From the NCBI RefSeq assembly GCF_017980685.1, contig NZ_JACXXO010000019.1:1-64000 (forward strand): 64,000 nt of DNA, read 5' to 3'. A model generated the notes under the pieces. It was not told the origin of the DNA. It was given only the letters and a program-made list of their open reading frames with translations, and ran no database searches. Each line of letters opens with the position of its first letter. Position 1 is the first letter of the stretch. Origin of the DNA: Pseudomonas iridis. Lineage in GTDB: Bacteria; Pseudomonadota; Gammaproteobacteria; Pseudomonadales; Pseudomonadaceae. Shown here in pieces: positions 10,173-62,397 of the stretch. Position numbers and translations under genes: made by a program.

Positions 10173-10235
10173 ACTGAGCGCCCGATAATGGCTGCGGCGT
10201 TGACGAACGGTCTTTCGAGTGTTCAGATGCCGCCC

Positions 10236-10425: not shown

Positions 10426-10524
10426 TTGGCAAAATCCTGCGGTGGGCGGGCATGGGCCGGTGTCGGCGTGTGCGCGATGCCTTCTCCTGCATGCTCTTCT
10501 GCGAAGATCCTTTTCGAGAAGACA

Positions 10525-12462: not shown

Positions 12463-12821
12463 TGGCTGAATTCAAAACGGTCGACGGCGTATACACGCAC
12501 CCGGACTGGTCGCACGTTCCCGAACATGCGCACCACGTGTTCCTCTGCACCGGCCCGCGCTGCACCCAGCGCGGCGCCTTGCAGTTATGGAAAACCCTGC
12601 GCCGGCACCTGCTGGCGCACGACCGCATCGAAACCCCGGGCGGCGTGTTACTGACACGCACGCATTGTCAGTTCCCGTGCAATCTGGGGCCGATTCTGAC
12701 GGTTTATCCCGAGACCTGCTGGTATGGCGTGCACAGCGACGCCGACGTGCAACGGCTGGTCGAGGTGCACCTGGTCGGTGGTGAGGTGGTTGAGGATTTG
12801 CTGATCAAGGAGCGCTCATGA
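12462..12821 (+). CDS. Thioredoxin-like [2Fe-2S] ferredoxin
   Basis: A 119-residue protein with four cysteines in the CX4C...CX3C pattern of thioredoxin-fold [2Fe-2S] ferredoxins (Cys29, Cys34, Cys69, Cys73: CTGPRC and CQFPC), as in NuoE and Aquifex Fd4. It probably supplies one electron to a corrinoid step, such as cobalt reduction, inferred only from its place in a B12-regulated operon. It starts at ATG 12462 overlapping the btuB stop, and its own stop overlaps the next start (ATGA). Confidence 0.85.
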   Translation: MAEFKTVDGVYTHPDWSHVPEHAHHVFLCTGPRCTQRGALQLWKTLRRHLLAHDRIETPGGVLLTRTHCQFPCNLGPILTVYPETCWYGVHSDADVQRLVEVHLVGGEVVEDLLIKERS

Positions 12822-17281: not shown

Positions 17282-17293
17282 GCCTTCAGATCC

Positions 17294-18670
17294 TCAGGAA
17301 TGCCCGGTTTCATCGGCCAGGGTCGGCTGTGGCCCGGGCTCGTCTTCGTGGGGTGGCTCGCGCAGGGTGCGTAGCAGCACCCACAGGCCGATGCCGAAGA
17401 TCAGCAGATAAAACAGCAGAATCAGCCACGTCGATCCGAGCACCTGCGCCCGCGACACCGACGACAGACTGTCAGCTGTGCGCATCAAACCGTAGACCGT
17501 GAACGGTTGCCGACCGACCTCGGTGACAATCCAGCCACTGAGCATCGCCAGCAAACCTGCCGGCGCCATCAGCACGCTTGTCCATAACCACCAGCGCGCG
17601 GTGTAGAGGCGTTGTCGACGGCGCAAAACAAGGCTGATGACGCCCTGCCCCAGCATCAACAATCCCAGGCCGACCATGGCGCGAAAGGCAAAAAACACCG
17701 GCGTGACTGGCGGAATATCCTGCGGCGCAAACTCATCCAGCGCAGCGATTGTCCCGCTCAAATCATGCGTCAGGTACAAGGAGCCAACGCGCGGAATTGC
17801 CACTTCCCAATGGTTGCGACGCTCGTTCATATCGGGCCAGGCCAACAGCCGCAGCGGTTCGCCCGCGCCTGTCGCCGGGCGTGTCCAGGAGCCTTCGATA
17901 GCCGCCACTTTCTGCGGCTGAAACTTCAGGCTGTTCTGACCATGCAGATCGCCGACCACAACCTGCACCGGGATCAGTACGGCAATCGCCCACAGCGTCA
18001 TGGAAAACGCCAGGCGTGCGCGTGGATTGTCTGGCGCCTTCAACAGTTGCCACGCACTGGCGCCAGCCACCACGGCTGCGGTGCCGAGCAACGCGGCCAG
18101 CGTCATATGGATCAACCGATAGGGAAACGACGGGTTGAAGATGATCGCCCACCAGTCTTCGGCGATAAAACGACCGTCTGCCGCAATCGAGTAACCGGCG
18201 GGTGTCTGCATCCACGAGTTGGCCGAAAGAATCCAGAACGCGCTGATCAACGAGCCCACGGCGACCGCACACGTGGCCAGGAAATGCAGACGCGGTCCGA
18301 CCTTCTTCAGACCGAACAGCATGATCCCGAGAAAACCGGCTTCCAGAAAAAACGCCGCGAGTATCTCGTAGAACATCAGCGGACCGAGAATATCCCCCGC
18401 CTGCACCGCCAGCCGTGACCAGTTGAGTCCGAACTGATATTCCAGAATCAGTCCCGACGCCACGCCTACTGCCACATTGAGGGCAAACACCTTGAGCCAG
18501 TAGCGGTAGACATCCAGATAAACCTTACGCCCGGTTTTCAGCCACAGCGCTTCGAGAATCATCAGAAAATTGGCCAGGCCGATGCTCAACGCCGCCAGCA
18601 CGATGTGGAAACTGATCGTGATCGCGAACTGCATTCGCGCCGCCATAAGGGCTGACTCAACGTTTTCCAT
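17294..18670 (-). CDS. cioA: Cyanide-insensitive-type quinol oxidase subunit I
   Basis: A 458-residue heme-bearing subunit of a bd-family oxidase that passes electrons from ubiquinol to O2. The N-terminal ARMQFAITISFHIVLAALSIG carries the heme b595 histidine, and the quinol-site GRQPFTVYGLMRT is present. It is shorter than E. coli CydA and lacks the long C-terminal Q-loop, as in the CIO branch. GRQPF replaces GRQPW. The start at 18670 (MENVESALMAARMQF) has GGAT upstream; an in-frame codon at 18757 is less likely. Confidence 0.93.
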   Translation of the reverse strand: MENVESALMAARMQFAITISFHIVLAALSIGLANFLMILEALWLKTGRKVYLDVYRYWLKVFALNVAVGVASGLILEYQFGLNWSRLAVQAGDILGPLMFYEILAAFFLEAGFLGIMLFGLKKVGPRLHFLATCAVAVGSLISAFWILSANSWMQTPAGYSIAADGRFIAEDWWAIIFNPSFPYRLIHMTLAALLGTAAVVAGASAWQLLKAPDNPRARLAFSMTLWAIAVLIPVQVVVGDLHGQNSLKFQPQKVAAIEGSWTRPATGAGEPLRLLAWPDMNERRNHWEVAIPRVGSLYLTHDLSGTIAALDEFAPQDIPPVTPVFFAFRAMVGLGLLMLGQGVISLVLRRRQRLYTARWWLWTSVLMAPAGLLAMLSGWIVTEVGRQPFTVYGLMRTADSLSSVSRAQVLGSTWLILLFYLLIFGIGLWVLLRTLREPPHEDEPGPQPTLADETGHS

Positions 18671-18969
18671 AAACGTATCCGGTTTGAAGTCCCATGGGCA
18701 TGTCGCCGTCCTTAATTTATCGCCTGATGAAGGTTCGACATCACCGCCAACCGGCAAATTCAGCGCAGGTAGCGATCTGCAATGCCTGCCGGGCGCTGTT
18801 CATGCAGCCTGCACGAAGGCTTTTTGCCGCATGCGGCGCAAACCATTGATCCAGCGCGGTTCAGGGTTGCGCTGCAAGTTGGCACAGCAAATGCGATAGC
18901 TACAGGCGAATCCCATAGCGCCGTGGCACAACGGCCTGTGTACAACCCGTGATAGCAGAGGCAACCACC
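18671..18969. other. Divergent promoter region between cioA and the hemerythrin gene
   Basis: A 299-bp gap between divergent genes. It holds an AT-rich patch (TTAATTTATCGCC, near 18713-18725) that could be part of a promoter. I did not find a convincing ANR/FNR box (TTGAT-N4-ATCAA). Confidence 0.4.
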
Positions 18970-19446
18970 ATGAACGCCATCGACCTTCTCAAAGCCGACC
19001 ATGAAAAAGTAAAAGGCATCCTCACCCAACTGAGCGAATCCACCGAACGCGCGTTGAAAAAACGCACCGAGTTGCTGGCCAAGCTGGAAATGGAAATCTC
19101 GATCCACACGCGTCTGGAAGAAGAAATCCTCTACCCCGCGTTTAAGGAAGCGGGCGGCAAGGAACAGGACATCATGTACTTCGAAGCCAAGGAAGAGCAC
19201 CGTACGGTGGACTCCCTGGTGCTGCCGGACCTGAAAATGACCGACCCGGGCACGCCGGAATTTGCCGGTCGGGTGAAAGTCGTCAAGGAGTTGCTGGAGC
19301 ACCACATCGAAGAGGAAGAAACAGAAATGTTCCCTCAGGCGAAAAAGCTGTTGGGTAAAGCGAAGCTCGATGAACTCGGAGCGCAAATGGAGGCCATGAA
19401 GGCCAGCTACAAGAAAGACATGGCGGCCGGCAATATGGCTGCGTAA
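18970..19446 (+). CDS. Hemerythrin HHE-domain protein
   Basis: A 158-residue four-helix protein with the iron ligands of the HHE family: His in LLKADHEKV, HTRLEEEILYP, KEEHRTVD and LLEHHIEEEETEMFPQ. It is expected to bind a di-iron centre and to sense or carry O2, NO or oxidants in the cytoplasm. The ATG at 18970 is chosen because the family starts MNAIDLLK. It is divergent from the cio oxidase and followed by a clear terminator. Confidence 0.92.
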   Translation: MNAIDLLKADHEKVKGILTQLSESTERALKKRTELLAKLEMEISIHTRLEEEILYPAFKEAGGKEQDIMYFEAKEEHRTVDSLVLPDLKMTDPGTPEFAGRVKVVKELLEHHIEEEETEMFPQAKKLLGKAKLDELGAQMEAMKASYKKDMAAGNMAA

Positions 19447-42693: not shown

Positions 42694-42710
42694 TCCAGCC
42701 GCTGTCCTTG

Positions 42711-42760
42711 CCACAACAAACGGCACCGTCGGTCTATACCGGCGGTGCCGTTTGTTGTGG
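42711..42760 (+). terminator. Long perfect hairpin after the SDR gene
   Basis: An 18-bp stem, CCACAACAAACGGCACCG with its complement, and a 14-base loop, 17 bp past the SDR stop. No T tract is adjacent; it probably terminates the operon before the LysR gene. Confidence 0.75.
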
Positions 42761-42805
42761 TAAATACCGGAATGAAAGATCCGTTGAGCCTCGGTGTAAT
42801 CGATT

Positions 42806-48223: not shown

Positions 48224-51190
48224 GTGGTGAAAATCCTGAAACATCTAACCCGCGAAGCGCTTGAATCCGAAGTCATGCGTCTGCGCCAGGCGCTGGAAAC
48301 CAGCGCAGGACAAACACTCGTCAGCGGCGCACAGCGCGATATCGCCGCGCAACTGGCCGCCAGCCGTGCGGCGCTCGCCGCCAGTGAAGCGCGCCAGCGG
48401 GCGATCTTGGAGTGCGCGATCGATTTCGCCATGGTCGCCACCGACCCGCGCGGCAACATTACCGAAGGGAACGCCGGCGCCGTCAATGTCATGGGCTGGA
48501 GCGCCGAAGAAGTACTCGGCCAGAGCGCCGCGATTTTTTTCACGCCGACGGATCGCGCCACGGGTCGCGTTGAATTGGAAATGCAACGCGCTTTGCTTGA
48601 AGGGCGCGCCTCCGATGAGCGTTGGCACCTGCGCAAGGACGGCCAATTGTTCTGGGCGTCGGGCGAACTGATGCCGCTCTATGCTGACGATCAATCCCAC
48701 TTGGGCTTCGTGAAAATACTTCGTGACCGCACCCAGGAGCATCTCGCTGGCCGTGCACTATTCGAATCGCAAGAGCGTTATCGCCTGGCGCTCAAGGCCA
48801 CACGCGATGCGGTCTGGGACTGGGATCTGCAGACCCGGCAGATTGTCTGGAACGAAGCCCTGCAACAGGCTTATGGATTCCCGTGTGCGGCCATCGGCTC
48901 GACGAGTGAATGGCGTTTTGCCCAGATCCATCCGCAGGATCGCGAACGCGTCGAGGAATCGATACGCTCGGCCATCGACGGCAGCGGATCGACCTGGAGC
49001 GCCGAGTACCGCTTCCGCTGCCAGGACGGTTCCTACGCCGAAGTGCTTGACCGCGGCCACTTGATCCGTGACGCCGACGGCCGCGCCGAACGCATCATCG
49101 GCGCGATGCTTGATCTGACGCGCTCGCGCAGTGCCGAAACGGCGCTGCGCCTGAGCGAAGAACGCTTCAGCACCATTCTGGAAACCATCGAAGCCGCATT
49201 CGCCATCGTCAAGGTCAAATTCGACGCCGACGATCGTCCGGTGGATTACTACTTCGTCGAGGCTAATCCGGCGTTCGAACGTCAATGCGGGGTCAATCTG
49301 CGGGGTAAATGGGTGACCGAGTTTGCACCCAATCTGGAAAAGTTCTGGTTCGAGACCTACGGGCACGTGGCCAAGACTGGCGAACCGGCGAACTTCGAAA
49401 GTTACGCCAACACCTTTGAGCGATGGTTCGACGTGCGTGCCGTACGAGTCGGCGATCCGGCCGACCGGCAAATCGCGATCCTCTTTAATGACGTCACCGA
49501 ACGACGCGACGTCGAAGAGCGCCTGCGCGTCAGCGAAGCACTCGCGCGTGAAAACGTCGAGCGTGTACAACTTGCCCTCGCCGCCGGCGCCATTATCGGC
49601 ACATGGCACTGGGACCTGCCGACCGATAGCTTTACCGTGGATGAAGCCTTCGCCAAGGTGTTCAATCTCGACCCGGCTCTGGGCCGCACCGGTCTGAGCC
49701 TGGAACAAGTGGTGACGACCGTTCACCCTGACGACCGGGACGGACTCATCGGTGCGATTAACGAAGCGATTGCCCGCGGCGGCGCCTATTCACATCAGTA
49801 TCGGGTGCGCGACGCCGATGGAAAATACAACTGGCTCGAGGCCAACGGGCGCGTCGAGTGCGCCGACGACGGTACGGCGCTGCGCTTTCCCGGCGTGCTG
49901 ATCGATGTGGAAGAGCGGCGCAGTGTCGAGGCCGAGCGCGATCGGGCCAACGCGGCACTGCGCGCGCTCAACGACACCCTGGAACAACGTGTAATCGCGC
50001 GCACTGCCGATCTCATGCAAGCCGAGGAAAAGCTGCGGCAATCTCAGAAAATGGAAGCCGTCGGGCAACTCACCGGAGGCCTGGCCCATGACTTCAACAA
50101 TCTGCTGGCCGGCATTTCCGCCGCCCTGGAGCTGATGCAAAAACGCATCGCTCAGGACCGCTTCAAGGACGTCGACAAGTATTTGGCCACCGCCCAAGGC
50201 GCGACCAAACGTGCGGCGGCGCTCACCCATCGACTGCTGGCGTTCTCCCGGCGCCAGACTCTCGATCCGCGGCCAACGGACGTCAACACACTGATTGTCG
50301 GCATGACCGAGTTGATCCAGCGCACCGTCGGCCCGAGCATTCGCTTGAAGACGTTGGTGGCACCCGATCTGTGGCCGGCGCTGGTCGATGCCAGCCAGTT
50401 GGAAAACGCTCTGCTGAATCTGTGCATCAACGCCCGCGATGCCATGCCGGATGGCGGCAGCATCACGGTGGAAACCGCCAATCGCGCCGTGGCCGTCGAG
50501 TCGGTTCGCACGCTGGACATTCCCGAGGGCGAGTACCTTTGCCTCTGCGTGACCGACACCGGCACCGGCATGAGCACTGAAGTTATCGCCAAGGCCTTCG
50601 ACCCGTTTTTCACCACCAAACCGCTCGGACAGGGCACAGGCCTTGGGCTGTCGATGATCTACGGCTTCACCAAACAATCCGGTGGCCATGTGCGTGTGCA
50701 TTCACAAGTTGGCCAAGGCACCACGATGTGCATCTACCTGCCACGCTATCGCGGCGAAGCAAAACAAAATCACGACGCCACCCGCAGCACGACAACACCG
50801 CTGGTTAAAGCAGGCGAGACCATTCTTATCGTCGACGACGAACCCACGGTGCGCATACTGCTCAAAGACGTGCTCAGCGAACTCGGCTATACCGTGCTGG
50901 ATGCGACTGACAGCATCGAAGGCCTTGATACGTTGCGCTCCAACGCGCAGATCGACCTGCTCATCACCGATGTCGGCTTACCGGGCGGCATGAACGGCCG
51001 GCAAATGGCCGACGCGGGCCGGGAAATCCGCCCGAAACTCAAGACCCTGTTCATCACCGGCTACGCAGAAAACGCCGTCATCGGCAGCGCTCAACTAGGG
51101 CCGGGGATGCAAGTGCTGACCAAGCCTTTTGCGGTCGACACGCTGGTGTCGCGGGTCAGTGATTTGCTGTACGAAGCGACAAAGCCGTAA
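48224..51190 (+). CDS. Soluble hybrid sensor histidine kinase with four PAS domains and a receiver
   Basis: A 988-residue signalling protein without membrane segments. A short coiled coil precedes PAS domains at about 60-180, 180-310, 310-440 and 440-560. Then come a coiled coil, HisKA with the phospho-acceptor His in GGLAHDFNNLLAGI (near 620), the ATPase lobe (LCINARDAMPDGG, GTGMS, GQGTGLGLSMIYGF) and a C-terminal receiver (ILIVDDEPTVR, LLITDVGLPGGMNG). GTG at 48224 or 48227 is the start. The receiver suggests intramolecular relay. No partner regulator is adjacent, and the signal is unknown. Confidence 0.9.
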   Translation: MVKILKHLTREALESEVMRLRQALETSAGQTLVSGAQRDIAAQLAASRAALAASEARQRAILECAIDFAMVATDPRGNITEGNAGAVNVMGWSAEEVLGQSAAIFFTPTDRATGRVELEMQRALLEGRASDERWHLRKDGQLFWASGELMPLYADDQSHLGFVKILRDRTQEHLAGRALFESQERYRLALKATRDAVWDWDLQTRQIVWNEALQQAYGFPCAAIGSTSEWRFAQIHPQDRERVEESIRSAIDGSGSTWSAEYRFRCQDGSYAEVLDRGHLIRDADGRAERIIGAMLDLTRSRSAETALRLSEERFSTILETIEAAFAIVKVKFDADDRPVDYYFVEANPAFERQCGVNLRGKWVTEFAPNLEKFWFETYGHVAKTGEPANFESYANTFERWFDVRAVRVGDPADRQIAILFNDVTERRDVEERLRVSEALARENVERVQLALAAGAIIGTWHWDLPTDSFTVDEAFAKVFNLDPALGRTGLSLEQVVTTVHPDDRDGLIGAINEAIARGGAYSHQYRVRDADGKYNWLEANGRVECADDGTALRFPGVLIDVEERRSVEAERDRANAALRALNDTLEQRVIARTADLMQAEEKLRQSQKMEAVGQLTGGLAHDFNNLLAGISAALELMQKRIAQDRFKDVDKYLATAQGATKRAAALTHRLLAFSRRQTLDPRPTDVNTLIVGMTELIQRTVGPSIRLKTLVAPDLWPALVDASQLENALLNLCINARDAMPDGGSITVETANRAVAVESVRTLDIPEGEYLCLCVTDTGTGMSTEVIAKAFDPFFTTKPLGQGTGLGLSMIYGFTKQSGGHVRVHSQVGQGTTMCIYLPRYRGEAKQNHDATRSTTTPLVKAGETILIVDDEPTVRILLKDVLSELGYTVLDATDSIEGLDTLRSNAQIDLLITDVGLPGGMNGRQMADAGREIRPKLKTLFITGYAENAVIGSAQLGPGMQVLTKPFAVDTLVSRVSDLLYEATKP

Positions 51191-51204
51191 CCCGCAACCG
51201 CCCC

Positions 51205-51296
51205 CTGTAGCTGCGGCACGCTGCGATCTTTTGATCTTGATTGTAAAAATCACAATCAAAAGATCGCAGCCTCGTTTCACTCGAATGCTCCTACAG
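51205..51296. repeat. Long inverted repeat (Pseudomonas intergenic repeat)
   Basis: It starts CTGTAGCTGCGGCACGCTGC and includes GCTGCGATCTTTTGATC with its complement; it ends CTCCTACAG. Same family as 58480-58568, with different loop length. Confidence 0.8.
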
Positions 51297-51338
51297 GTTT
51301 GTGTGCTGGCCGAAGATCTGTGAGCGACGCACAAACCT

Positions 51339-51365
51339 GTGGGAGCGAGCTTGCTCGCGAAGGGG
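51339..51365. repeat. REP-type palindrome
   Basis: TGTGGGAGCGAGCTTGCTCG plus GCGAAGG, standard REP, in the 280-bp gap between the kinase and the Fic antitoxin gene. Confidence 0.8.
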
Positions 51366-51469
51366 CCGTGTCAGTCGACAGACATGCTGAATGACACGGT
51401 GCACCTGCACTGCACGCCGACAGAAACGACACCATGCTATGCTTCAAAGGAGAAAATGAGGGTTTCCAA

Positions 51470-51733
51470 ATGACCAGATCAACCACTGACAGCGTTGCGG
51501 CCGAAGTTCGCCAGCTCGCCAAAGAACACCAGGTTACCGCCGACCGAGATAGCCTGAGCCGTATGGCAGTTACGATCACACGCTTGGCTGGCGATGTCGT
51601 GGAGCTGGACGGCGTTGAGCAATTGCTCGTCAACCTCAAAAGAAAAGGTGTTTTAAGCAAAACAGAGATCATGGCCCTGCAAGGACGCTACCTGCAGGAA
51701 AAAAGGCGCTGCAAAAAACAACTCAGCGCATGA
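51470..51733 (+). CDS. Probable antitoxin of the Fic toxin
   Basis: An 87-residue helical protein (STTDSVAAEVRQLAKEHQV, LAGDVVELDGVEQLLVNLKRKGVLSKTEIMALQGRYLQEK). I do not see the S/TxxxE(G/N) inhibitory motif of classical Fic antitoxins; the nearest is SVAAEV. Its role is inferred from the 4-bp overlap with the Fic gene. GAGGG precedes ATG 51470. P. fluorescens is known to have a Fic-1/AntF pair, and this could be a relative, which I cannot verify. Confidence 0.7.
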   Translation: MTRSTTDSVAAEVRQLAKEHQVTADRDSLSRMAVTITRLAGDVVELDGVEQLLVNLKRKGVLSKTEIMALQGRYLQEKRRCKKQLSA

Positions 51734-52467
51734 CCTTCGACCCCTTCGGCGATTTCGATACAGCAGGTTATCTTCAAAACTCGCTCAAACTCAAAGACCC
51801 CATCGAAGTAAAGGAGTCTGAGCACCTCTCATTCGAAGCCAGTATCGATGAGGCTCTTGCCTATCTAGCCAAGAAAAAGCCCATCGACTACAAAACCATC
51901 CTCAAAACCCACGAAATCCTATTCTCCGGTTTTTACCCTTGGGCGGGGAAAGACAGGAATGAGCTGGTTCCCCATCTGGCAGTTTTCAAGGGATCGAAAG
52001 ACGATCCTCATCACACGATATTTGAGCGTCCGGAGCTGATCAAAAGGTCAGTCGAATACGCGCTTGAACTCGCAGCCAACAAGAAACGCTTCCGGACCCG
52101 ACCGGGTGAGGTAATGGGCCAACTGGCTTCTGCTCACCCCTTTCTGGATGGCAATGGACGCACAATCCTGCTGGTTTACATGGAACTGTGTTTTCGGACC
52201 AAATTCGCCATCGACTGGTCAAAGACAAGCAAGGACGACTACTTGCGAGCGCTCAGCGAAGAAATTCGAGATCCTTTCCAAGGCCATCTGGATGATTACC
52301 TGGCGCCTTTCATCGTCAACATCTCCAGCCGAGAAGAATGGCCAGAAATGATTGGCCGTATAACGGGACTGGATGGTCTGGACAAGGAAGGCATTACGTA
52401 CCAGAGTCTTGATGATCCAGAGGTTCAGCAGCTCTACAAAACGTACCGGGCGCGGCCTTTCGAATGA
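51730..52467 (+). CDS. Fic-domain protein (probable AMPylating toxin)
   Basis: A 245-residue Fic protein. The active-site motif is HPFLDGNGRTIL (His136 to Leu147); canonical Fic is HPFx[D/E]GNGRxxR, so the last Arg, which grips the ATP phosphates, is Leu here. The flap ENELVPHLAVFKG-like (NELVPHLAVF) and the FSGFYPWAGKDRNEL segment are typical. Family members transfer AMP to targets such as gyrase. It overlaps the antitoxin gene by ATGA. Activity may be reduced or altered. Confidence 0.88.
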   Translation: MTFDPFGDFDTAGYLQNSLKLKDPIEVKESEHLSFEASIDEALAYLAKKKPIDYKTILKTHEILFSGFYPWAGKDRNELVPHLAVFKGSKDDPHHTIFERPELIKRSVEYALELAANKKRFRTRPGEVMGQLASAHPFLDGNGRTILLVYMELCFRTKFAIDWSKTSKDDYLRALSEEIRDPFQGHLDDYLAPFIVNISSREEWPEMIGRITGLDGLDKEGITYQSLDDPEVQQLYKTYRARPFE

Positions 52468-52506
52468 TGGTCATCTGGGAATTCTGATTTTGTACCGCAG
52501 AAGAAC

Positions 52507-52534
52507 CAAAAGCCTGCTTTTCAGGGCAGGCTTT
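52507..52534. terminator. Terminator of ycaC-like copy A, left end of direct repeat A
   Basis: AAAAGCCTGC pairs with GCAGGCTTTT around an 8-base loop, with flanking A and T tracts; it serves the minus-strand hydrolase and also lies after the Fic gene. Confidence 0.9.
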
Positions 52535-52552
52535 TCGTCAGTCGCCGTCGAC

Positions 52553-53185
52553 TTACTTTTGCTGCGCCGTCAGCGCCGCATAACCATTCATCAAGTTGCG
52601 ATAGTTCGGGATCCGCTGCGACAGCAGATTACCCAGTCCTTCGATGTCGTTGCGCCAGTCGCGGTGCAGCTCACAGGCTACCGAGAACCAGTTCATCATC
52701 TGTGCGCCGGCCTGAGTCATGCGGATCCATGCGGCTTGTTGCACGGTGGTGTTGAAAGTGCCGGAGGCATCGGTGACCACGAACACATCAAACCCTTCGG
52801 CCAAGGCTGACAGTGTCGGGAATGCCACACAAACATCGGTGACCACGCCAGCAATGATGATCTGCTTGCGGCCGGTGGCTTTGATCGCCTTGACGAAGTC
52901 TTCGTTGTCCCAGGCATTGATCTGGCCTGGACGGGCGATGTAGGGCGCATCCGGGAACATCTCTTTCAGTTCCGGTACCAGTGGGCCGTTCGGGCCTTGT
53001 TCGAAACTGGTGGTGAGGATGGTCGGCAATTCGAAGAACTTCGCCAGATCGGCCAACGCCAGAACGTTGTTCTTGAATTCGTTCGGCGAGAAGTCCTGCA
53101 CCAGAGAAATCAAACCGGTCTGGTGGTCAACCAGCAGTACTACGGCGTCGTCTTTGTTGAGGCGGTTGTAGGTTGGCGTGTTCAT
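52553..53185 (-). CDS. Isochorismatase-family hydrolase, YcaC type (copy A)
   Basis: A 210-residue cysteine hydrolase of the isochorismatase superfamily, YcaC branch. Asp20 (LLVDHQTG) and Cys119 (VVTDVCVAF) of the catalytic set are visible, with conserved TTSFEQGPNGP. YcaC has an unknown substrate. AAGGA lies 8 bases before the ATG. A nearly identical copy is at 58640; the only protein difference is Ile154 here versus Ser there. Its upstream region is duplicated as well, so both should be under similar control. Confidence 0.9.
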   Translation of the reverse strand: MNTPTYNRLNKDDAVVLLVDHQTGLISLVQDFSPNEFKNNVLALADLAKFFELPTILTTSFEQGPNGPLVPELKEMFPDAPYIARPGQINAWDNEDFVKAIKATGRKQIIIAGVVTDVCVAFPTLSALAEGFDVFVVTDASGTFNTTVQQAAWIRMTQAGAQMMNWFSVACELHRDWRNDIEGLGNLLSQRIPNYRNLMNGYAALTAQQK

Positions 53186-53384
53186 CTGTGCAGTCCTTTT
53201 TAGTTGGGGAAGTTCTTGTTGCGTTCAAGATGGGCTCAGATTACTGACACTCCAGCGCTGGATAAATCGGCTGAAAAGCGTTTGACCGTCAACCCAAAAA
53301 GGACAATCCAAAACATCGATCTGAATCCCCTCGCGCCTTCGGGGTCGATGGGTAAGGCAGGTTCGCTGACAGAGGAATAAACAG

Positions 53385-53708
53385 ATGCACCCAACCACGC
53401 CTGACGGCCGTTATTTCGTGGTCAAAGAACGGCTTTGGCGATGCAGCAACCCGTCTTTGGACCCGCAACAACGCCAGCATCTCGTCGACGACTTGATGAC
53501 TGCGCGACGCGAAATCAAAGCGGCGAAGTCGCTGGGTGACCCGCAAGAATTGAAAACAGCCAGGGCGCATGTGCAAGCCGCCAAAGTGGCACTGGGCGAA
53601 CGTGGCCCGGTCTGGTGGGAGGACGGCAGTGCGGATTACAACCGATACAAAGTGAGCAACACGCCGTATGCCGAGTGGTATCAAACGCTGAAGCCGCAAA
53701 GCGATTAA
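53385..53708 (+). CDS. Conserved hypothetical protein
   Basis: A 107-residue soluble protein starting MHPTTPDGRYFVVKERLWRCSNPSL. A helical middle (QQRQHLVDDLMTARREIKAAKSL, ELKTARAHVQAAKVALGERG) is followed by GPVWWEDGSADYNRYKVSNTPYAEWYQTL. The sequence has the feel of a conserved family of unknown function. GAGG precedes the ATG. It lies immediately inside the left direct repeat. Confidence 0.75.
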   Translation: MHPTTPDGRYFVVKERLWRCSNPSLDPQQRQHLVDDLMTARREIKAAKSLGDPQELKTARAHVQAAKVALGERGPVWWEDGSADYNRYKVSNTPYAEWYQTLKPQSD

Positions 53709-53746
53709 AGCGTTCGCTACCTGCGCAATGAGTGCTGACAGATGAG

Positions 53747-54745
53747 TCAGTCAAGTCGAGCCGTGCTGTCACGTGGCGTCAGCTGGAACGGCAACACCAC
53801 ATGTCGGGCAGGCAACGGCTGCTTCTCGATCAGCGCAATCAGCATTTCGACGGCTTTCTCGCCGAACATTTCCGCCGGTTGGGAGATGGTTGTCAGCGGC
53901 GGATCGCAATAAGCCGCCATCGGAATGTCATCGAATCCCGCCAGCGAAATATCCTCCGGGACGCGCAACCCCTGCTCCTTGATGCGCTTCAACGCACCAA
54001 TCGCCATCTCGTCATTTTCACAAAACAGCGCACTCGGCCGGTCAGCGAGCGCAAGCATTTTTCCGGCGCCGGCATAGCCCGCAGCCAGACTGAAATCCCC
54101 GTGACAAACAAGCGCATCGTCCAGCGCAAGGCCCGCCTGGCGTATCGCCTGCTCGTACCCCGCCAGACGATCTCGCGTCAGCGGACTGCCTTTCGACCCT
54201 TTGATCAGGCCTATGCGCCGATGCCCAAGCGCAATCAAATGCTCGGTCATCGCCTTGGCGGCCGCGACGTTGTCGAGGCTGATTGTCGGATGACGCCCTT
54301 GCTGGATCACTTCGCAGGCATTGACGATCGGCGGCAGATCCTTCCCCGCCATTGAGCCTTCGAAGGGATCGAAGGCGCGCAGTTGAATCACGCCATCCGC
54401 TTGATGGGCGTACACCAGATCGGCGAACTGGCGTTCCAGTGCTTCGCGGCCCTGAGTGTCGCAGAGCAACAATCTGTAGCCGGCGGCGTGCGCAGCCTTT
54501 TGCGCACCGCTGATGACCCGGGCGAAAAACGTGTTGGCAATGGTCGGGACCAGAATCACCAGGTTCCCGGTTTTGCGTGAGCGAAACTGCACCGCCATCA
54601 GGTTCGGCCTATACCCGGCCTGTTCGACGGCAGCCATGACCCGATCGCGGGTGTCGGGCAGTACGCGCTCCGGCGACTTCAGCGTTCTTGACACTGTTGC
54701 CACCGAAACGCCCGCCAGCCGTGCCACTTCGCGGATATTGGACAA
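53747..54745 (-). CDS. LacI-family transcriptional regulator
   Basis: A 332-residue repressor with the LacI HTH (NIREVARLAGVSVATVSRTL, residues 3-22), the hinge (YRPNLMAVQFRSRKTGNLV) and a two-lobed sugar-binding domain (AGFDDIPMAAYCDPPLTTISQP). It is divergent from the Gfo/Idh-epimerase-permease operon. A perfect palindrome, ATGTAACCGGTTACAT, lies between and is the likely operator, so it probably represses the operon and itself, with a sugar-derived inducer. Confidence 0.93.
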   Translation of the reverse strand: MSNIREVARLAGVSVATVSRTLKSPERVLPDTRDRVMAAVEQAGYRPNLMAVQFRSRKTGNLVILVPTIANTFFARVISGAQKAAHAAGYRLLLCDTQGREALERQFADLVYAHQADGVIQLRAFDPFEGSMAGKDLPPIVNACEVIQQGRHPTISLDNVAAAKAMTEHLIALGHRRIGLIKGSKGSPLTRDRLAGYEQAIRQAGLALDDALVCHGDFSLAAGYAGAGKMLALADRPSALFCENDEMAIGALKRIKEQGLRVPEDISLAGFDDIPMAAYCDPPLTTISQPAEMFGEKAVEMLIALIEKQPLPARHVVLPFQLTPRDSTARLD

Positions 54746-54869
54746 ATCTGGCTCGCTCTTTCAATCAAATCGGCCGCCGAGCTTACCGCACAGCGGCGCG
54801 CGCCGAAACGCCGACATTCGTCAGGCGAGGTTTGACAGCGGTGCATTTCAAGCCTAGATTTCGCCTGCG

Positions 54870-54885
54870 ATGTAACCGGTTACAT
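54870..54885. promoter_or_regulatory. LacI-type operator between lacI-like gene and sugar operon
   Basis: ATGTAACCGGTTACAT is a perfect 16-bp palindrome with the central CG typical of LacI/GalR sites, 39 bp before the Gfo/Idh start. Confidence 0.85.
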
Positions 54886-54923
54886 AATAGACAACTTATG
54901 CACTCTCCACAGAGACAATTGCC

Positions 54924-56114
54924 ATGATTGCTGCTGCTCGAAGAATAAGAATGGGCTTCGTCGGTGGGGGTGAAGGCGCCTTCATCGCTCAGGCACACCG
55001 GCAGGCCGCCGGCCTCGATGGTCGCTTCGAACTGGTCTGCGGTGCGTTCAGCCGAGACGTGCAAAACAATCAGCGCAGCGGCGCCGCACTCGGGCTGCCC
55101 GCGCAACGCTGTTATGACACCTGGCAAGACATGCTCGCCGCCGAATCCATGCTGTCGCCCGCTCAGCGCATGGAACTGCTGGTGATCGTCACGCCTAATC
55201 ACTTGCACGCGCCTGTTGCCAGCGCAGCGTTGAGCGCCGGTTTCCATGTTTTCAGCGAGAAGCCTGCTGCGCTCAATCTGGCCGAAGTGCAGGCGCTCGA
55301 ACGCGTCGTCCGCAGCAGCCAGCGAATCTACGCGCTGGCGCACACGTATCTGGGTTACGCGATGGTCTGGCAGGCCCGGGAAATGGTCGCCAGCGGCGTT
55401 ATTGGTCGCCTGCGCAAAGTCCTCGTCGAATACCCGCAAGGCTGGCTCAGCACCGACGTCGCCGGCCAAGGCAACAAGCAGGCCGACTGGCGCGACAACC
55501 CAGAGCAATCGGGCATCGGCGGCTGCATCGGTGACATCGGCACTCACGCGTTTTCCCTGGCTGAGTTTGTCGCCGGTCAGCCCATCGAGTTCATCAGCGC
55601 GATGCTCGGCTCGCATTTCAGCAGCCGTCAACTGGATGACGACGCCGCCATGTTGTTCAAAATGGCCGACGGCGCCAGCGGCGTGTTGATCGCCAGTCAG
55701 GTCTGCGCCGGTGAAGAGAATCCGCTGAAAATTCGTCTGTATGGTGACAAGGGAGGCCTTGAGTGGCGTCAGGAAGAGCCCGCCAGTCTGACCCACCGAC
55801 CATTGAACGAACCCATGCGCGTGCTGCGATCCGGTCTCGGCCAAGCGTGGTTATGTGAAGCTGCAACCCGACGCATGCGCCTGCCCGCCGGGCACCCGGA
55901 AGGTTATCTGGAGGCCATGGCCAATCTGTATGGCGACCTCGCGCAGGCGATTCTTGCGGGCACGAGCGGCCCTGATGCGCCAGGCGTACCCGGCATAGAG
56001 ACCGGCCTGCGCGGCATGGCCTTCATCGAAACGGCTATCGCCAACCATCGCGGTGATGCCAAGTGGAGCGAAATACCTCGCCAGTCAATCGGAGCATCCG
56101 CCAATGAAAACTGA
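54924..56114 (+). CDS. Gfo/Idh/MocA-family sugar dehydrogenase
   Basis: A 396-residue NAD(P)-dependent sugar oxidoreductase: GFVGGGEGAFIAQAHRQAA at the cofactor site, TPNHLHAPVASAALSAGFHVFSEKPAAL with the EKP motif, and GGCIGDIGTHAFSLAEF with the catalytic-type Asp and His. It probably oxidises a sugar or glycoside, perhaps at C3. First gene of a LacI-controlled operon; it overlaps the epimerase gene by 11 bp. Confidence 0.88.
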   Translation: MIAAARRIRMGFVGGGEGAFIAQAHRQAAGLDGRFELVCGAFSRDVQNNQRSGAALGLPAQRCYDTWQDMLAAESMLSPAQRMELLVIVTPNHLHAPVASAALSAGFHVFSEKPAALNLAEVQALERVVRSSQRIYALAHTYLGYAMVWQAREMVASGVIGRLRKVLVEYPQGWLSTDVAGQGNKQADWRDNPEQSGIGGCIGDIGTHAFSLAEFVAGQPIEFISAMLGSHFSSRQLDDDAAMLFKMADGASGVLIASQVCAGEENPLKIRLYGDKGGLEWRQEEPASLTHRPLNEPMRVLRSGLGQAWLCEAATRRMRLPAGHPEGYLEAMANLYGDLAQAILAGTSGPDAPGVPGIETGLRGMAFIETAIANHRGDAKWSEIPRQSIGASANEN

Positions 56115-57186
56115 TCAAACAAACCCTGGCGGCATGCGCGGCCCGGGCATCTTTCTCGCGCAATTCATCTCGGACGAAGCGCCCTTTGACTCCCTCGCCA
56201 ACATTGCACAGTGGGCGGCCTCGCAAGGCTACAAGGCCATCCAGTTGCCGACCCTTGGCACGCGTTTCATTGATCTTGAGCGCGCCGCCGACAGTCAGGA
56301 TTACTGCGACGAACTCATCGCAATCTGCGCCAAGGCCGGTGTGGTGATCAGCGAATTGTCGACGCATCTGCAAGGCCAACTGGTCGCGGTGCATCCGGCG
56401 TTCGACAGCCTCTTCGACGACTTCGCCCCACAGGATGTGCGCGGCAAGCCGCAAGCGCGCACCGAGTGGGCGATCAACCAGATGAAGCTCGCGGCGCGCG
56501 CCAGTCAGCGCCTGGGGCTGACAGCCCATGCAACCTTTTCCGGCGCCCTGCTCTGGCCGTATGTCTACCCGTGGCCGCAACGACCTGCCGGTCTGGTCGA
56601 GCAAGGTTTTGCTGAACTGGCCAAGCGCTGGCTACCCATACTCGACTGTTTCGACGAGGCCGGTGTCGACCTGTGTTACGAAATCCATCCCGGCGAAGAC
56701 CTGCACGACGGCGCCTCTTTCGAACGCTTTCTTGAGGCGGTGAATCATCATCCGCGCGCGGCGATTCTGTATGACCCGAGCCACTTGTTGTTACAGCAGA
56801 TGGATTATCTGGGCTTCATTGATCGCTATCACGAGCGCATCCGCATGTTTCATGTGAAAGACGCAGAGTTCCGTCCCGATGCACGCTCCGGTGTCTACGG
56901 CGGCTATCAAGGCTGGGTTGATCGTCCGGGCAGATTCCGCTCGCTGGGCGATGGCCAGATCGACTTCAAATCGATCTTCAGCAAGTTGACCCAATACGAC
57001 TTCAACGGCTGGGCCGTGCTCGAGTGGGAATGCTGTCTGAAAGATGCTGCGCAAGGCGCTGCCGAAGGCGCCGCATTCATTGAACAACACATGATCACCA
57101 AGACCCGCAAGGCGTTCGACGACTTCGCCAGCGTGAGCGCTGACGCGCAATCGAATCGACGTCTTTTGGGGCTCCAAGACCACTGA
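56104..57186 (+). CDS. TIM-barrel sugar phosphate isomerase/epimerase
   Basis: A 360-residue AP-endonuclease-2-fold protein of the xylose-isomerase-like superfamily. Metal and substrate residues are visible in CYEIHPGEDLHDG, LYDPSHLLLQ, MFHVKDAEFRPD and VLEWEC. It isomerises or epimerises, or in some relatives eliminates, a keto-sugar made by the Gfo/Idh partner. GGAG lies 9 bases before ATG 56104; the upstream in-frame codon at 56053 would overlap more. Confidence 0.9.
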   Translation: MKTDQTNPGGMRGPGIFLAQFISDEAPFDSLANIAQWAASQGYKAIQLPTLGTRFIDLERAADSQDYCDELIAICAKAGVVISELSTHLQGQLVAVHPAFDSLFDDFAPQDVRGKPQARTEWAINQMKLAARASQRLGLTAHATFSGALLWPYVYPWPQRPAGLVEQGFAELAKRWLPILDCFDEAGVDLCYEIHPGEDLHDGASFERFLEAVNHHPRAAILYDPSHLLLQQMDYLGFIDRYHERIRMFHVKDAEFRPDARSGVYGGYQGWVDRPGRFRSLGDGQIDFKSIFSKLTQYDFNGWAVLEWECCLKDAAQGAAEGAAFIEQHMITKTRKAFDDFASVSADAQSNRRLLGLQDH

Positions 57187-57227
57187 TTTACCGCTGTTAC
57201 CGACATAAAAATAATACGGTGATTGAA

Positions 57228-58466
57228 ATGAACGTAATGAATGCGCGACTCAGCGTCATGATGTTTTTGCAGTTTTTTATCTGGGGTGGCTGGTTCGTCA
57301 CCCTCGGCACCTTCCTCACCACAACGCTGGCGGCCAGCGGTGGGCAGGTGGGGATGGCGTTTTCGACCCAGTCCTGGGGAGCGATCATTGCGCCCTTCGT
57401 CATTGGCCTGATTGCCGATCGATTCTTCAACGCCGAACGCATCCTGGCGGTGCTGCACCTGATCGGCGCAGTGCTGCTGTTCCAGCTCTATCGGGCGGCG
57501 GATTTCAGCGATTTTTATCCCTATGTGCTGGCCTACATGATGGTCTACATGCCGACGCTGGCCCTGGTCAATGCGGTGGCGTTCCGCCAAATCAAAGACC
57601 CCGCCCTGGAGTTTTCGCGCATACGGGTCTGGGGCACCGTCGGCTGGATTGTCGCCGGCATCGTCATCAGCTTCGGCTTTGCCTGGGACTCCCAACAGGC
57701 CATCGCGGCGGGCGGCCTGCGCAACACTTTCCTGATGTCTGCCGTTGCGTCGCTGGTATTGGGGCTTTACAGCTTCAGCCTGCCGAACACCGCCCCGCTG
57801 AAATCCACTGAAGGGTCGGCAAGCCTGAAGCAGATGCTGGGTGTGGATGCGTTGAGTCTGCTCAAGGATCGCAGCTATCTGGTGTTCTTCCTCGCGTCCA
57901 TTCTGATCTGCATTCCCCTGGCGTTTTATTACCAGAATGCCAACCCGTTCCTCGCCGAAATCGGCGTCACCAATCCGACGGCGAAGATGGCCATCGGGCA
58001 AGTGTCCGAAGTGCTGTTCATGCTGCTTCTGCCGCTGTTCATTCAGCGCTTCGGCATCAAGATTGCGTTGCTGGTCGGCATGCTGGCCTGGGCGCTGCGA
58101 TACGTGCTGTTTGCCTTCGGCGATAACGGTGATCAGGCGTTCATGCTGCTCATCGGTATTGCCCTGCACGGCGTTTGCTACGACTTTTTCTTCGTCTGCG
58201 GGCAGATCTACACCGACGCCAAGGCCCCAGAGCGCTTTCGCAGCTCGGCTCAGGGCCTGATTACCCTGGCGACTTACGGTTTGGGCATGCTCGTCGGCTT
58301 CTGGATCGCCGGCCAGATTACCGACCACTTTGCCTCACCAAACGGGCATGACTGGCGCAGCATCTGGCTGTTTCCGGCCGGTTTCTCGGTCGCGGTGCTG
58401 CTGCTTTTCTGGCTGACGTTCAAGGGGCGGGACAGCGACAAGGCGGTGGTCCCCTCACCCGTTTAG
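57228..58466 (+). CDS. MFS permease of the nucleoside:H+ symporter (NHS) type
   Basis: A 412-residue 12-helix transporter with the NupG-like start LSVMMFLQFFIWGGWFVTLGTFL, the central SRIRVWGTVGWIVAGIV and GIALHGVCYDFFFVCGQIYTD. It probably imports the nucleoside or glycoside degraded by the operon. The ATG at 57228 with GGTGA upstream is preferred to the GTG at 57219. Third gene of the operon; 41 bp after the epimerase. Confidence 0.9.
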   Translation: MNVMNARLSVMMFLQFFIWGGWFVTLGTFLTTTLAASGGQVGMAFSTQSWGAIIAPFVIGLIADRFFNAERILAVLHLIGAVLLFQLYRAADFSDFYPYVLAYMMVYMPTLALVNAVAFRQIKDPALEFSRIRVWGTVGWIVAGIVISFGFAWDSQQAIAAGGLRNTFLMSAVASLVLGLYSFSLPNTAPLKSTEGSASLKQMLGVDALSLLKDRSYLVFFLASILICIPLAFYYQNANPFLAEIGVTNPTAKMAIGQVSEVLFMLLLPLFIQRFGIKIALLVGMLAWALRYVLFAFGDNGDQAFMLLIGIALHGVCYDFFFVCGQIYTDAKAPERFRSSAQGLITLATYGLGMLVGFWIAGQITDHFASPNGHDWRSIWLFPAGFSVAVLLLFWLTFKGRDSDKAVVPSPV

Positions 58467-58479
58467 ACACTATCGTCCC

Positions 58480-58568
58480 CTGTAGGAGCTGCGGCACGCT
58501 GCGATGTTTTGATCCTGATTTAAAGATCAGAATAATCGCAGCCCCGCTGCACTCGAATGCGCCTACAG
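58480..58568. repeat. Long inverted repeat (Pseudomonas intergenic repeat)
   Basis: CTGTAGGAGCTGCGGCACGC ... GCCTACAG, with an internal GATC-rich hairpin, very like 51205-51296. It sits between the permease gene and direct repeat B. Confidence 0.8.
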
Positions 58569-58595
58569 GATGTTGTGTGTTCAGTTGAACGAACT

Positions 58596-58622
58596 AAAGC
58601 CTGCTTTTCAGGGCAGGCTTTT
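58596..58622. terminator. Terminator of ycaC-like copy B
   Basis: AAAGCCTGC/GCAGGCTTT with an 8-base loop, the same hairpin as at 52507; serves the minus-strand hydrolase. Confidence 0.88.
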
Positions 58623-58639
58623 AGTCAGTCAGCGTCGAC

Positions 58640-59272
58640 TTATTTTTGCTGCGCCGTCAGCGCCGCATAACCATTCATCAAGTTGCGATAGTTCGGAATC
58701 CGCTGCGACAGCAGATTGCCCAGTCCTTCGATGTCGTTGCGCCAGTCGCGGTGCAGCTCACAGGCTACCGAGAACCAGTTCATCATTTGTGCGCCGGCCT
58801 GAGTCATGCGGCTCCATGCGGCTTGTTGCACGGTGGTGTTGAAGGTGCCGGAGGCGTCGGTGACCACGAACACATCAAACCCTTCGGCCAGTGCCGACAA
58901 TGTCGGGAACGCCACACAAACATCAGTCACCACGCCGGCAATGATGATCTGCTTGCGGCCAGTAGCCTTGATCGCCTTGACGAAGTCTTCGTTGTCCCAG
59001 GCGTTGATCTGGCCTGGACGGGCGATGTAGGGCGCGTCCGGGAACATCTCTTTCAGTTCCGGTACCAATGGGCCGTTCGGGCCTTGTTCGAAACTGGTGG
59101 TGAGGATGGTCGGCAGTTCGAAGAATTTCGCCAGATCGGCCAGGGCTAAAACGTTGTTCTTGAACTCGTTTGGCGAGAAGTCCTGCACCAGAGAAATCAA
59201 ACCGGTCTGGTGGTCAACCAGCAGTACTACGGCGTCGTCTTTGTTGAGGCGGTTGTAGGTTGGAGTATTCAT
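58640..59272 (-). CDS. Isochorismatase-family hydrolase, YcaC type (copy B)
   Basis: A 210-residue paralogue of copy A with the same catalytic Asp20 and Cys119 and the single change Ser154. By eye the two genes differ at about 31 nucleotides, all but one silent, so the duplication is not fresh and both proteins are under strong purifying selection or occasional gene conversion. The upstream AAGGA and start are as in copy A. Confidence 0.9.
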   Translation of the reverse strand: MNTPTYNRLNKDDAVVLLVDHQTGLISLVQDFSPNEFKNNVLALADLAKFFELPTILTTSFEQGPNGPLVPELKEMFPDAPYIARPGQINAWDNEDFVKAIKATGRKQIIIAGVVTDVCVAFPTLSALAEGFDVFVVTDASGTFNTTVQQAAWSRMTQAGAQMMNWFSVACELHRDWRNDIEGLGNLLSQRIPNYRNLMNGYAALTAQQK

Positions 59273-59496
59273 CTGTGCAGTCCTTTTTAGTTGGGTAAGT
59301 TCTTGTTGCGTTCAAGATGGGCACAGATTACTGACACTCCAGCGCTGGATAAACCGGCTGAAAAGCGTTTCACCGTCAACCCAAAAAGGACAATCACGCG
59401 ACGCTGATCACGGATTTAGCTGCGATCCCGAACTTCGCGGCGATCCTTGTCATACTGTTACCCGCTTCACGTGTGCAATAAACCAAGGAGATGTTC

Positions 59497-61056
59497 ATGC
59501 TCGGACGCCCCTCGCCAGAGCCGAACACAGACAACCCCGCATCCCTGAAAGCCGTGCGCGCCGGATCGACGTTCCGCCTGACGGTGAGTTTCATGCTGGT
59601 AGTGGTCATGGCCTTCCTGGCGGTCGAGAGCTGGCGAACCTGGCGCGACTACCGTGCAGCCTTCGATTCTGCGCGCAACTCGGTGACCAATCTCGCCCGC
59701 GCCACGGCCCAGCATGCCGAAGACACCATCCGCCAGATGGACGTGCTGACTGCCGCCCTGAGTGAGCGGATCGAAGGTGATGGCCTGCAAAACCTCGATG
59801 TCCCGCGCATCCATAAGTTGTTGGTGCAGCAATCGACAATCATGCCGCAGCTGCACGGTTTGTTTATCTACGGCCCTGATGGACAGTGGATCGTCACCGA
59901 CAAGGAGGTGACGCCCGAGACCGCGAACAACGCCGATCGCGATTATTTCCAGTACCACCGCACCCATGAAGATCGCCATGTGCGCATCGGCGATGTGGTC
60001 CAGAGCCGCTCCACGAAAGACCTGATCATTCCCATATCACGCCGGCTGAACAATGCCGATGGCTCGTTCGCCGGCGTGTTGCTGGGCACGGTCAAGGTCA
60101 GCTACTTCGTCGATTACTACGGTGACTTTCGCATTGATGACAAAGGCGCGCTGGTGCTGGCCAGGCGCGACGGCACCATCCTCGTGCGCCGCCCGTTCAT
60201 CGCCTCGGTGATCGGCAAAAGCCTGGCCAACAGCGAGATCTTCAAGACCTATTTACCCATCTCCAACTCAGGCATCGCGCAAGTGCGCGCCGTCGTCGAC
60301 GACACCGAGCGCTTGTATGGCTATCGCGCCCTCACGACCTATCCAGTGGTGGTCGAGGCGGGTCTGTCGCGTGATTCAATCATCGAACCCTGGCAGCAGG
60401 ATTTGCTGAAGAACGGCTTCGTGCTGGTGTTTCTGATTCTGGTGCTGAGCTGTTTCGGGCTCATCGTCCTGAGCCAGTTGCGCCAGCGTATGGCGATGGA
60501 ACGACAAATCCGCCACGCCCATCAGACCATGCGCGACATGGCATTGACTGACGCCCTGACCGGGCTCGGCAACCGTCGACGCCTGGACAATTCGCTGGCC
60601 GATGAAATTCGATTGACCCGTCGCCAAGGCTCGGCGCTGTCGTTGATCATGCTCGATGTCGACCACTTCAAACGCTACAACGACCAATACGGGCATGCGG
60701 CGGGTGATGATTGCCTGAGCGCGGTCGGGCAGGCGATCCAGCAAGCGGTCAAACGCCCGGGTGACCTGGCCGTACGCTATGGCGGCGAAGAGTTCACCGT
60801 GTTATTGCCCAATACCGACAGCGCCGGGGCGATTCAGGTCACCGAGGACATTTTGCAGAGTATTCGTGCGCTGAAGCTGGAACATGCCGGACATCCTCTG
60901 GGGTATGTCACAGCCAGTGCCGGCATAACCACACGTCATCCCGTCGACGACACGGTCACGTCGGCCTCGTTGTTGAAAGCGGCCGACACTTGTCTCTACG
61001 AGGCCAAGCAACAGGGGCGCAACCGTTGGTGTTTAAGTTCGACGGTGATGAGCTGA
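59497..61056 (+). CDS. Membrane diguanylate cyclase with dCache sensor
   Basis: A 519-residue protein that makes cyclic di-GMP. N-terminal membrane helix (FRLTVSFMLVVVMAFLAVESW), a periplasmic double-Cache domain (about 60-300; LFIYGPDGQWIVTDK, DYFQYHRTHEDRHVRIGDVVQSRST), a second helix (LVFLILVLSCFGLIVL) and a GGDEF domain with GGEEF at 429-433 and an RxxD inhibitory site (RPGD 420-423). ATG 59497 has GGAG at the right distance; ATG 59491 would be too close. Confidence 0.93.
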   Translation: MLGRPSPEPNTDNPASLKAVRAGSTFRLTVSFMLVVVMAFLAVESWRTWRDYRAAFDSARNSVTNLARATAQHAEDTIRQMDVLTAALSERIEGDGLQNLDVPRIHKLLVQQSTIMPQLHGLFIYGPDGQWIVTDKEVTPETANNADRDYFQYHRTHEDRHVRIGDVVQSRSTKDLIIPISRRLNNADGSFAGVLLGTVKVSYFVDYYGDFRIDDKGALVLARRDGTILVRRPFIASVIGKSLANSEIFKTYLPISNSGIAQVRAVVDDTERLYGYRALTTYPVVVEAGLSRDSIIEPWQQDLLKNGFVLVFLILVLSCFGLIVLSQLRQRMAMERQIRHAHQTMRDMALTDALTGLGNRRRLDNSLADEIRLTRRQGSALSLIMLDVDHFKRYNDQYGHAAGDDCLSAVGQAIQQAVKRPGDLAVRYGGEEFTVLLPNTDSAGAIQVTEDILQSIRALKLEHAGHPLGYVTASAGITTRHPVDDTVTSASLLKAADTCLYEAKQQGRNRWCLSSTVMS

Positions 61057-62316: not shown

Positions 62317-62333
62317 TCTGACTAAGCGGTAAC

Positions 62334-62378
62334 AAAAAAAGGGGCGGCCTGATCGTTGATCAGTCCGCCCCTTTTTTT
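62334..62378. terminator. Bidirectional terminator between the copper pair and the membrane protein gene
   Basis: AAAAAAAGGGGCGG pairs with CCGCCCCTTTTTTT around a self-paired inner loop (TGATC/GATCA). It serves genes from both sides. Confidence 0.95.
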
Positions 62379-62397
62379 GCTTTTGCTGTGCACCGCA

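Follow-up and report, generated by a model that had tools for sequence, protein, structure and literature searches.

Why does Pseudomonas iridis carry the same gene twice, some six kilobases apart, and why have the two copies stayed so alike? We analysed positions 1 to 64,000 (forward strand) of contig NZ_JACXXO010000019.1 from assembly GCF_017980685.1; "the window" denotes this whole stretch of 64,000 nucleotides. In it, two direct repeats enclose a cassette of sugar-related genes. Each repeat contains ycaC, which encodes an isochorismatase-family cysteine hydrolase. We propose an old direct duplication of ycaC, kept alike by homologous recombination, with the repeats acting as homology anchors for the cassette. 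We put the probability of this reading at roughly 0.65. It builds on features documented at the level of sequence: the repeats, an arrangement shared with distant species, the kinship of the P. iridis copies, an empty site in some relatives and one replacement of the cassette between species with both of its limits in the repeat units.

Two ycaC units in direct orientation

Comparison of the window with itself using BLAST identified repeats at 52500-53308 and 58587-59395. These have the same orientation and align with 94.9% identity over 810 columns (E value 0). The start-to-start distance is 6087 bp. Each unit of ~0.8 kb holds one complete ycaC, on the minus strand, encoding 210 amino acids. 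Unit copy 1 comprises a terminator-like hairpin, ycaC and ~120 bp upstream of the gene. Briefly, ycaC occupies 52553-53185 in copy 1 and 58640-59272 in copy 2, the latter delimited by its open reading frame and by alignment with copy 1. The hairpin, found by a hairpin scan (52508-52535, minus strand), lies just past ycaC copy 1 at the left unit edge. Its stem letters are also present in copy 2 in the alignment, although the scan of copy 2 left the hairpin unlisted. The copy 1 protein matches NF041461 with 400.4 bits, above the cut-off of 310, and also PF00857; 4wgf and 1yac are solved relatives. Copy 2 is one residue apart from this scanned protein. According to PMC4519933, the active site of P. 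aeruginosa YcaC consists of Asp19, Arg84 and Cys118. The same paper describes YcaC as unusually conserved, and as known as an enzyme but not in its function. Both P. iridis copies keep the active-site residues Asp20 and Cys119; Arg85 was counted by eye in the translation.

The two genes differ at 31 of 633 bases, 24 of them at third codon positions. The sole residue change is isoleucine 154 in copy 1 versus serine 154 in copy 2. Among the 67 YcaC copies compared, this residue is serine in 55, asparagine in 11 and isoleucine only in P. iridis copy 1. By the Nei-Gojobori method (NG86), synonymous divergence (dS) between the copies is 0.239 and nonsynonymous divergence (dN) is 0.0021. These figures confirm a preliminary description of the DNA, which had noted near-identical direct ycaC repeats around a LacI sugar operon. 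The dN/dS ratio, whose calculation it had suggested, is 0.009. The longest perfect runs common to the two copies are 92, 68 and 53 bp, and perfect matches of these lengths are long enough for RecA-type recombination.

We also searched the P. iridis genome (5.9 Mb in 46 contigs, estimated to be 100% complete). Beyond these two units it gave no third match at E ≤ 0.001. An assembly artefact is unlikely to be the origin of the pair because the copies are 5% apart and like pairs occur in single-contig genomes (G207, G062, G036, G034 and G121; G and L numbers are our handles for genomes and loci).

The pair is old and recurs in distant species

The closest named relative is P. anatoliensis P141 (G453), which has a like neighbourhood at 94-95% DNA identity. 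Between the two species, dS is 0.16-0.25 for six neighbour genes and 0.06 for the SCO gene. The duplication is not recent: the divergence of copy 1 from copy 2 (0.24) is about that of the neighbour genes. The earlier argument that silent divergence rules out a recent copy error thus stands. P. anatoliensis P141 lacks 51360-53381, which in P. iridis contains a 99-amino-acid open reading frame, a Fic gene and ycaC copy 1. It has ~307 other bases instead, and keeps the cassette and copy 2. In a tree of 68 units, P. iridis copy 1 groups with the P. anatoliensis copy (position 2) and P. iridis copy 2 falls outside (100/94). By plain counts the three are almost equidistant, with 38, 41 and 42 differences of 809.

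The order of genes encoding Fic, YcaC, a LacI-family regulator, a Gfo/Idh/MocA oxidoreductase, a TIM barrel protein, a symporter and again YcaC is also found in P. chlororaphis EA105 (G454) and Pseudomonas sp. Irchel 3H7 (G456). Both are without a 107-amino-acid open reading frame that P. iridis has in the cassette, and both have a third direct ycaC 20-28 kb further on. Comparing P. iridis with G454, G456 and G062 gives dS of 0.72-1.02 for flanking genes and 0.53-0.78 for ycaC.

Probable, patchy homogenisation of copies within a genome

If a shared pair had evolved without exchange, position-1 copies from different genomes should group together. A tree forcing together the position-1 copies of four genomes was rejected (132.65 log units; approximately unbiased (AU) test, p-AU 0.0002). 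Forcing together only those of P. iridis and G454 was likewise rejected (p-AU 3e-6). The groups for these tests were chosen with a tree already in view and without the P. anatoliensis copy. Hence, the copies have been homogenised or, less likely, were duplicated separately. Judged by these trees, the P. iridis copies are each other's kin rather than kin of their positional counterparts. Silent divergence is 0.24 between the copies of P. iridis and 0.06 between copies 1 and 2 of G454, versus the 0.53-0.78 between genomes.

In 9 of 17 genomes with pairs, each of the two copies is more similar to its partner than to its best match outside that genome. Of 20 multi-copy loci, 7 have copies that cluster in a supported clade of their own (G009, G036, G067, G121, G199, G207 and G294). 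Partly positional grouping is kept in G033, G098 and G034, and in G231 and G019. We read these as old pairs with intermittent conversion, homogenisation being patchy among relatives. The preliminary description had not foreseen a pair common to distant species yet homogenised in P. iridis.

An empty site in relatives

A one-unit arrangement occurs in G055 and G097, where ycaC lies between the Fic gene and a TetR-like gene (family 45, named by eye). To the left, this arrangement is collinear with G454 until copy 1 ends; to the right, collinearity resumes where copy 2 of G454 begins. Specifically, G055 9000-10927 aligns to G454 9532-11459 (93.8%) and 10127-13000 aligns to G454 16294-19169 (92.5%); G097 behaves likewise. 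The difference from G454 is 5643 bp, equal to one ycaC plus the sugar cassette. Each of the two genomes has another unit further on. This site may represent either loss of the cassette or an older state.

The preliminary description had predicted that recombination between the repeats would delete or circularise the module. The one-copy arrangement does exist, in other species (G055 and G097). In the genomes compared, no empty site was found in the P. iridis lineage and no deletion junction was seen in P. iridis or a close strain. G105, with one unit between the histidine kinase and SCO genes, has empty-site-like gene content, but is also without Fic and GGDEF.

Replacement of the cassette between species

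G454 and G062, which has three units at the locus, were picked as the most extreme pair. Here, the four cassette genes have dS of 0.06-0.09, while the nearest shared genes outside are at 0.29 and 0.31. Between the units, 100 of 4919 positions differ (2.0%). Outside, the left unit has 45 differences over 721 positions, and the stretch made up of the right unit and the sequence past it has 91 over 1445 (6.2-6.3%). The best breakpoints, at 11360 and 16325 of the G454 locus, fall inside the units at 10652-11459 and 16295-17096 (likelihood ratio 80.6). In the control pairs G454-G456 and G062-G456, 4.9 and 4.7% of positions differ inside versus 5.8-7.5% outside. Since the control pairs are only mildly different, the cassette is not simply slow-evolving. 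A second tract, in G097 versus G456, includes the third-position ycaC, with the smallest ycaC dS (0.03). Neither end of this tract is in ycaC, since it starts to the left of the unit and continues well past it. The alignments support recombination at ycaC as having moved the cassette across species, in genomes other than P. iridis itself.

ycaC units across the genus

The unit was searched for in 298 genomes of the genus, taken at one per species. Some match was obtained in 260, and 60 of the best-scoring were searched again. At least 17 of these 60, P. iridis included, have two or three units at the locus, on one contig and one strand, within 27 kb. Thus, the ycaC anchors are not single-copy. 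With named genomes added, 20 of 45 loci have more than one unit, at spacings of 2.6-30 kb; the loci were picked partly for having pairs, so this proportion is not a prevalence. No units on opposite strands were reported in the 45 loci, 20 of them multi-unit. The number of units per locus varies from 1 to 3, at odds with a picture of all strains holding two ancient copies. As judged from gene-order strings and copy spacing, the gene content between anchors also varies among relatives.

Outside the 60 genomes, G024, G045, G057, G076, G077 and G081 each have two ycaC-like matches on the same strand, 4-16 kb apart. In another Pseudomonas clade, the loci of G067 and G121 (L064 and L065) have two alike ycaC genes (dS 0.05 and 0.01) flanking a single called gene, which belongs to different families in the two. 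At L068 (G230, contig 72), a five-gene block (families 1, 2, 3 and 6, and a histidine kinase) occurs twice, flanking ycaC and families 57, 89 and 37. This double block could stem from segmental duplication on a larger scale at the locus, or from assembly.

A model for the locus and its rivals

In the mechanism that we propose, the unit would be a self-contained gene with its terminator-like hairpin, reading frame and upstream region. Conversion between units would occur from time to time and keep the copies alike. Crossing over between copies in one chromosome would remove the cassette and one ycaC. Incoming DNA with ycaC units could bring a cassette in, or exchange it for the version of another lineage. 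Both routes would leave one intact ycaC. We infer RecA-type recombination as the agent acting in P. iridis, as we do the rate and direction (gain or loss) of cassette movement and the retention of intact YcaC as what selection cares about. A wider proposal would make ycaC an integrase-free docking site in fluorescens-type Pseudomonas. Duplicated, intermittently homogenised copies would allow entire metabolic cassettes to be inserted, lost or replaced across species through homologous recombination of the ordinary kind while an intact ycaC is kept, the gene serving as both enzyme and reusable connector. We hold this generalisation only tentatively, at somewhat less than even odds.

The rejected positional trees could also reflect independent, lineage-specific duplications of ycaC, with like neighbourhoods arising via cassette transfer or by chance. 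Same-genome copies do group together in several genomes, and there is one unit at the locus both in the nearest relative and in G105, which comes next in the unit tree. Against this, G454 and G456 repeat the P. iridis arrangement, Fic standing left of copy 1 and the symporter left of copy 2. The 68-unit tree also places the duplication before the P. anatoliensis split, if weakly, with three copies nearly equidistant. We consider independent origins unlikely. Improbable, in our view, is an account by selective maintenance only, in which YcaC dosage preserves the copies, protein and codon constraint makes them alike and the cassette is incidental. The low dN/dS (0.009) is what it expects; so are the unusual conservation of YcaC, as described in PMC4519933, and a ycaC dS below that of the neighbours in distant pairs. 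However, constraint cannot give silent likeness within a genome (0.24, or 0.06 in G454) beyond that between genomes (0.53-0.78). Nor does it predict an empty site or an exchange tract ending inside the units.

Sharp unit ends raise another alternative, namely that the unit belongs to a mobile element that has gone unrecognised, for example one delimited by the unit ends or one using adjacent repetitive extragenic palindromic (REP) repeats. Of 55 unit matches outside the P. iridis genome, 41 begin at unit position 1-11 and end at 808-809 irrespective of their neighbours; the remaining 14 are shorter, and most of them stop near 744 or 715. REP repeats lie beside both blocks, and P. anatoliensis has four tandem copies of ~180 bp with REP and the terminator-like end of the unit. 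But a conserved promoter and terminator would also give sharp ends. Multi-copy units sit near each other in direct orientation, and the 19-base REP core shared by 51209-51305 and 58487-58579 is common, with 35 sites in the P. iridis genome, some as close inverted pairs. Recombinase, transposase and integrase families were absent from the 10 window proteins scanned, all cargo or neighbours encoded within 48224-61056 of the P. iridis window; two of the 10 had no Pfam match at all. We regard a mobile element as the least probable of these accounts.

Several observations weigh against duplication with homogenising recombination. An exclusive clade of copies is missing from 11 of 20 multi-copy loci, and in G454 such a clade takes in only two of the three copies. 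The P. anatoliensis copy falls between the two P. iridis copies in the 68-unit tree. Copies 1 and 2 of G456 differ with a dS of 0.51, about the between-genome level. Five of the six genomes outside the 60 have one match 85-87% and another 79-80% like the P. iridis unit, and so look unhomogenised. Codon constraint may explain part of the likeness, given the ycaC to neighbour dS ratio of 0.60-0.65 in distant pairs. Of the tests for gene conversion that the preliminary description had called for, the AU comparisons favour homogenisation, but a mosaic test comparing the two P. iridis copies with that of P. anatoliensis reached only p 0.065. Chimera tests of the empty-site units gave one value of five below 0.05 (0.023), the others being 0.088-0.219. 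The replaced cassette comes from a pair chosen for being extreme. The nearest relative lacks the block with Fic and ycaC copy 1, a difference that recombination between the two copies leaves unexplained and that the preliminary description had not anticipated. Finally, jumps in dS were larger across ycaC than across other genes (p 0.005, 33 versus 944 comparisons), also against controls that are not co-directional (p 0.014, 33 versus 427). Tested by genome pair, the excess was no longer significant (p 0.13, with the larger jump at ycaC in 14 of 28 pairs), nor was it by junction type (p 0.26, 11 versus 65). We do not claim that ycaC is a generally preferred breakpoint.

Relation to known systems

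Composite transposons and integrase-driven genomic islands have direct repeats around cargo and an empty site. The ycaC locus resembles them in both respects. It differs in that the repeats are a whole 0.8-kb gene unit, are 5% diverged and come with no transposase or integrase found. Bacterial repeats such as rRNA operons undergo concerted evolution by gene conversion. Similarly, the P. iridis copies are closer to each other at silent sites than to positional counterparts in distant species. Unlike rRNA operons, ycaC is a protein gene of unknown function that bounds a metabolic cassette, and its homogenisation is incomplete and patchy.

Of known systems, the nearest is the integrase-free hotspot that recombines at the genes flanking it; in the ycaC locus, that flanking gene is present in duplicate. 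According to PMC5635113, the content of many bacterial hotspots changes although no mobile element can be recognised, and homologous recombination at the flanking genes has been proposed as a cause. Like them, the ycaC locus has accessory genes that vary between conserved ones and no mobility gene in the cargo scanned; in one case, an exchange tract has both of its ends in the flanking gene. In those hotspots the flanking core genes are the two neighbours of an interval, whereas this locus has two or three direct copies of one gene. A further difference from the hotspots described there is that a single crossover within the chromosome could remove the cassette, and that the anchors are homogenised in part of the genomes. 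Among the matches listed in the literature searched, a body outside which most subscription papers lie, neither ycaC duplication nor ycaC-flanked cassettes appeared in titles or the starts of abstracts. At this one locus, states with one, two and three units can be seen together with an exact empty site and an exchange tract that has both ends inside the anchor gene. Loss and gain of the cassette are open to direct laboratory test. If our reading is true, the locus would be a concrete case of a protein-gene duplication being useful as DNA homology, beyond dosage.

Ideas not retained

We had considered that ycaC might be more diverged than its neighbours in close pairs, as a recombining pool. 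This came from few pairs and failed over 280 genome pairs, where the median ratio of ycaC to neighbour dS was 0.97-1.11 in close pairs and 0.60-0.65 in distant ones. For this comparison, 313 pairs with at least four shared single-copy families were built and 33 without a ycaC comparison were dropped. The diversity of neighbours (27 and 28 different neighbours among 65 ycaC copies) was not used as evidence because the loci were fetched by ycaC and are biased. In 23 loci with family 4 or 17, ycaC ranked first of 25 families (rarefied values 6.0 and 5.8), with the next family close (6.3 and 3.6). The letters at the left unit edge do not mark position; the position-1 copies of G454, G456, L092 and G055 match from unit position 1, and so does the position-2 copy of G111. 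A plasmid origin was also dropped. Only 6 of 72,556 records match, partially, over at most 16% of the query and with at most 81% identity.

Cassette and neighbouring genes

The cassette between the units (53309-58586) was delineated from open reading frames and family scans. Its leftmost gene is the 107-amino-acid open reading frame (53385-53708, plus strand), with no Pfam or NCBIfam match and with relatives in G207 (71%) and P. anatoliensis (90%). The LacI-family regulator follows on the minus strand (53747-54745; PF00356, PF13377). The next genes are on the plus strand and encode the Gfo/Idh/MocA oxidoreductase (54924-56114; PF01408, PF22725), a xylose-isomerase-like or sugar-isomerase-like TIM barrel protein (56053-57186; PF01261) and a nucleoside/H+ symporter-type transporter of the major facilitator superfamily (57219-58466; PF03825, 399 bits).

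Directly left of copy 1, on the plus strand, lie the 99-amino-acid open reading frame and the gene for a VbhT-like Fic protein (together 51434-52467; PF02661, VbhT structures 3zcb and 3shg). The Fic translation contains HPFLDGNGR, and both genes adjoin ycaC in several relatives too. The Fic match is split or partial in G055 and G097. Further left is a PAS histidine kinase gene (48224-51190). Its product has 988 amino acids here versus a family median of 820 in the loci compared. Right of copy 2 are genes for a GGDEF protein and then for SCO-like and copper-chaperone-like proteins, the last two named by eye.

Self-comparison of the window also located a REP-type repeat directly left of unit copy 2 (58487-58579), related to 51209-51305. 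Further REP-type or palindromic repeats are at 42708-42763 and 62333-62379. In P. anatoliensis (L089, 13540-14270), four tandem copies of ~180 bp, each with a REP-type repeat and the terminator-like end of ycaC, stand just before ycaC. In that species, the unit edge appears to have been amplified together with REP.

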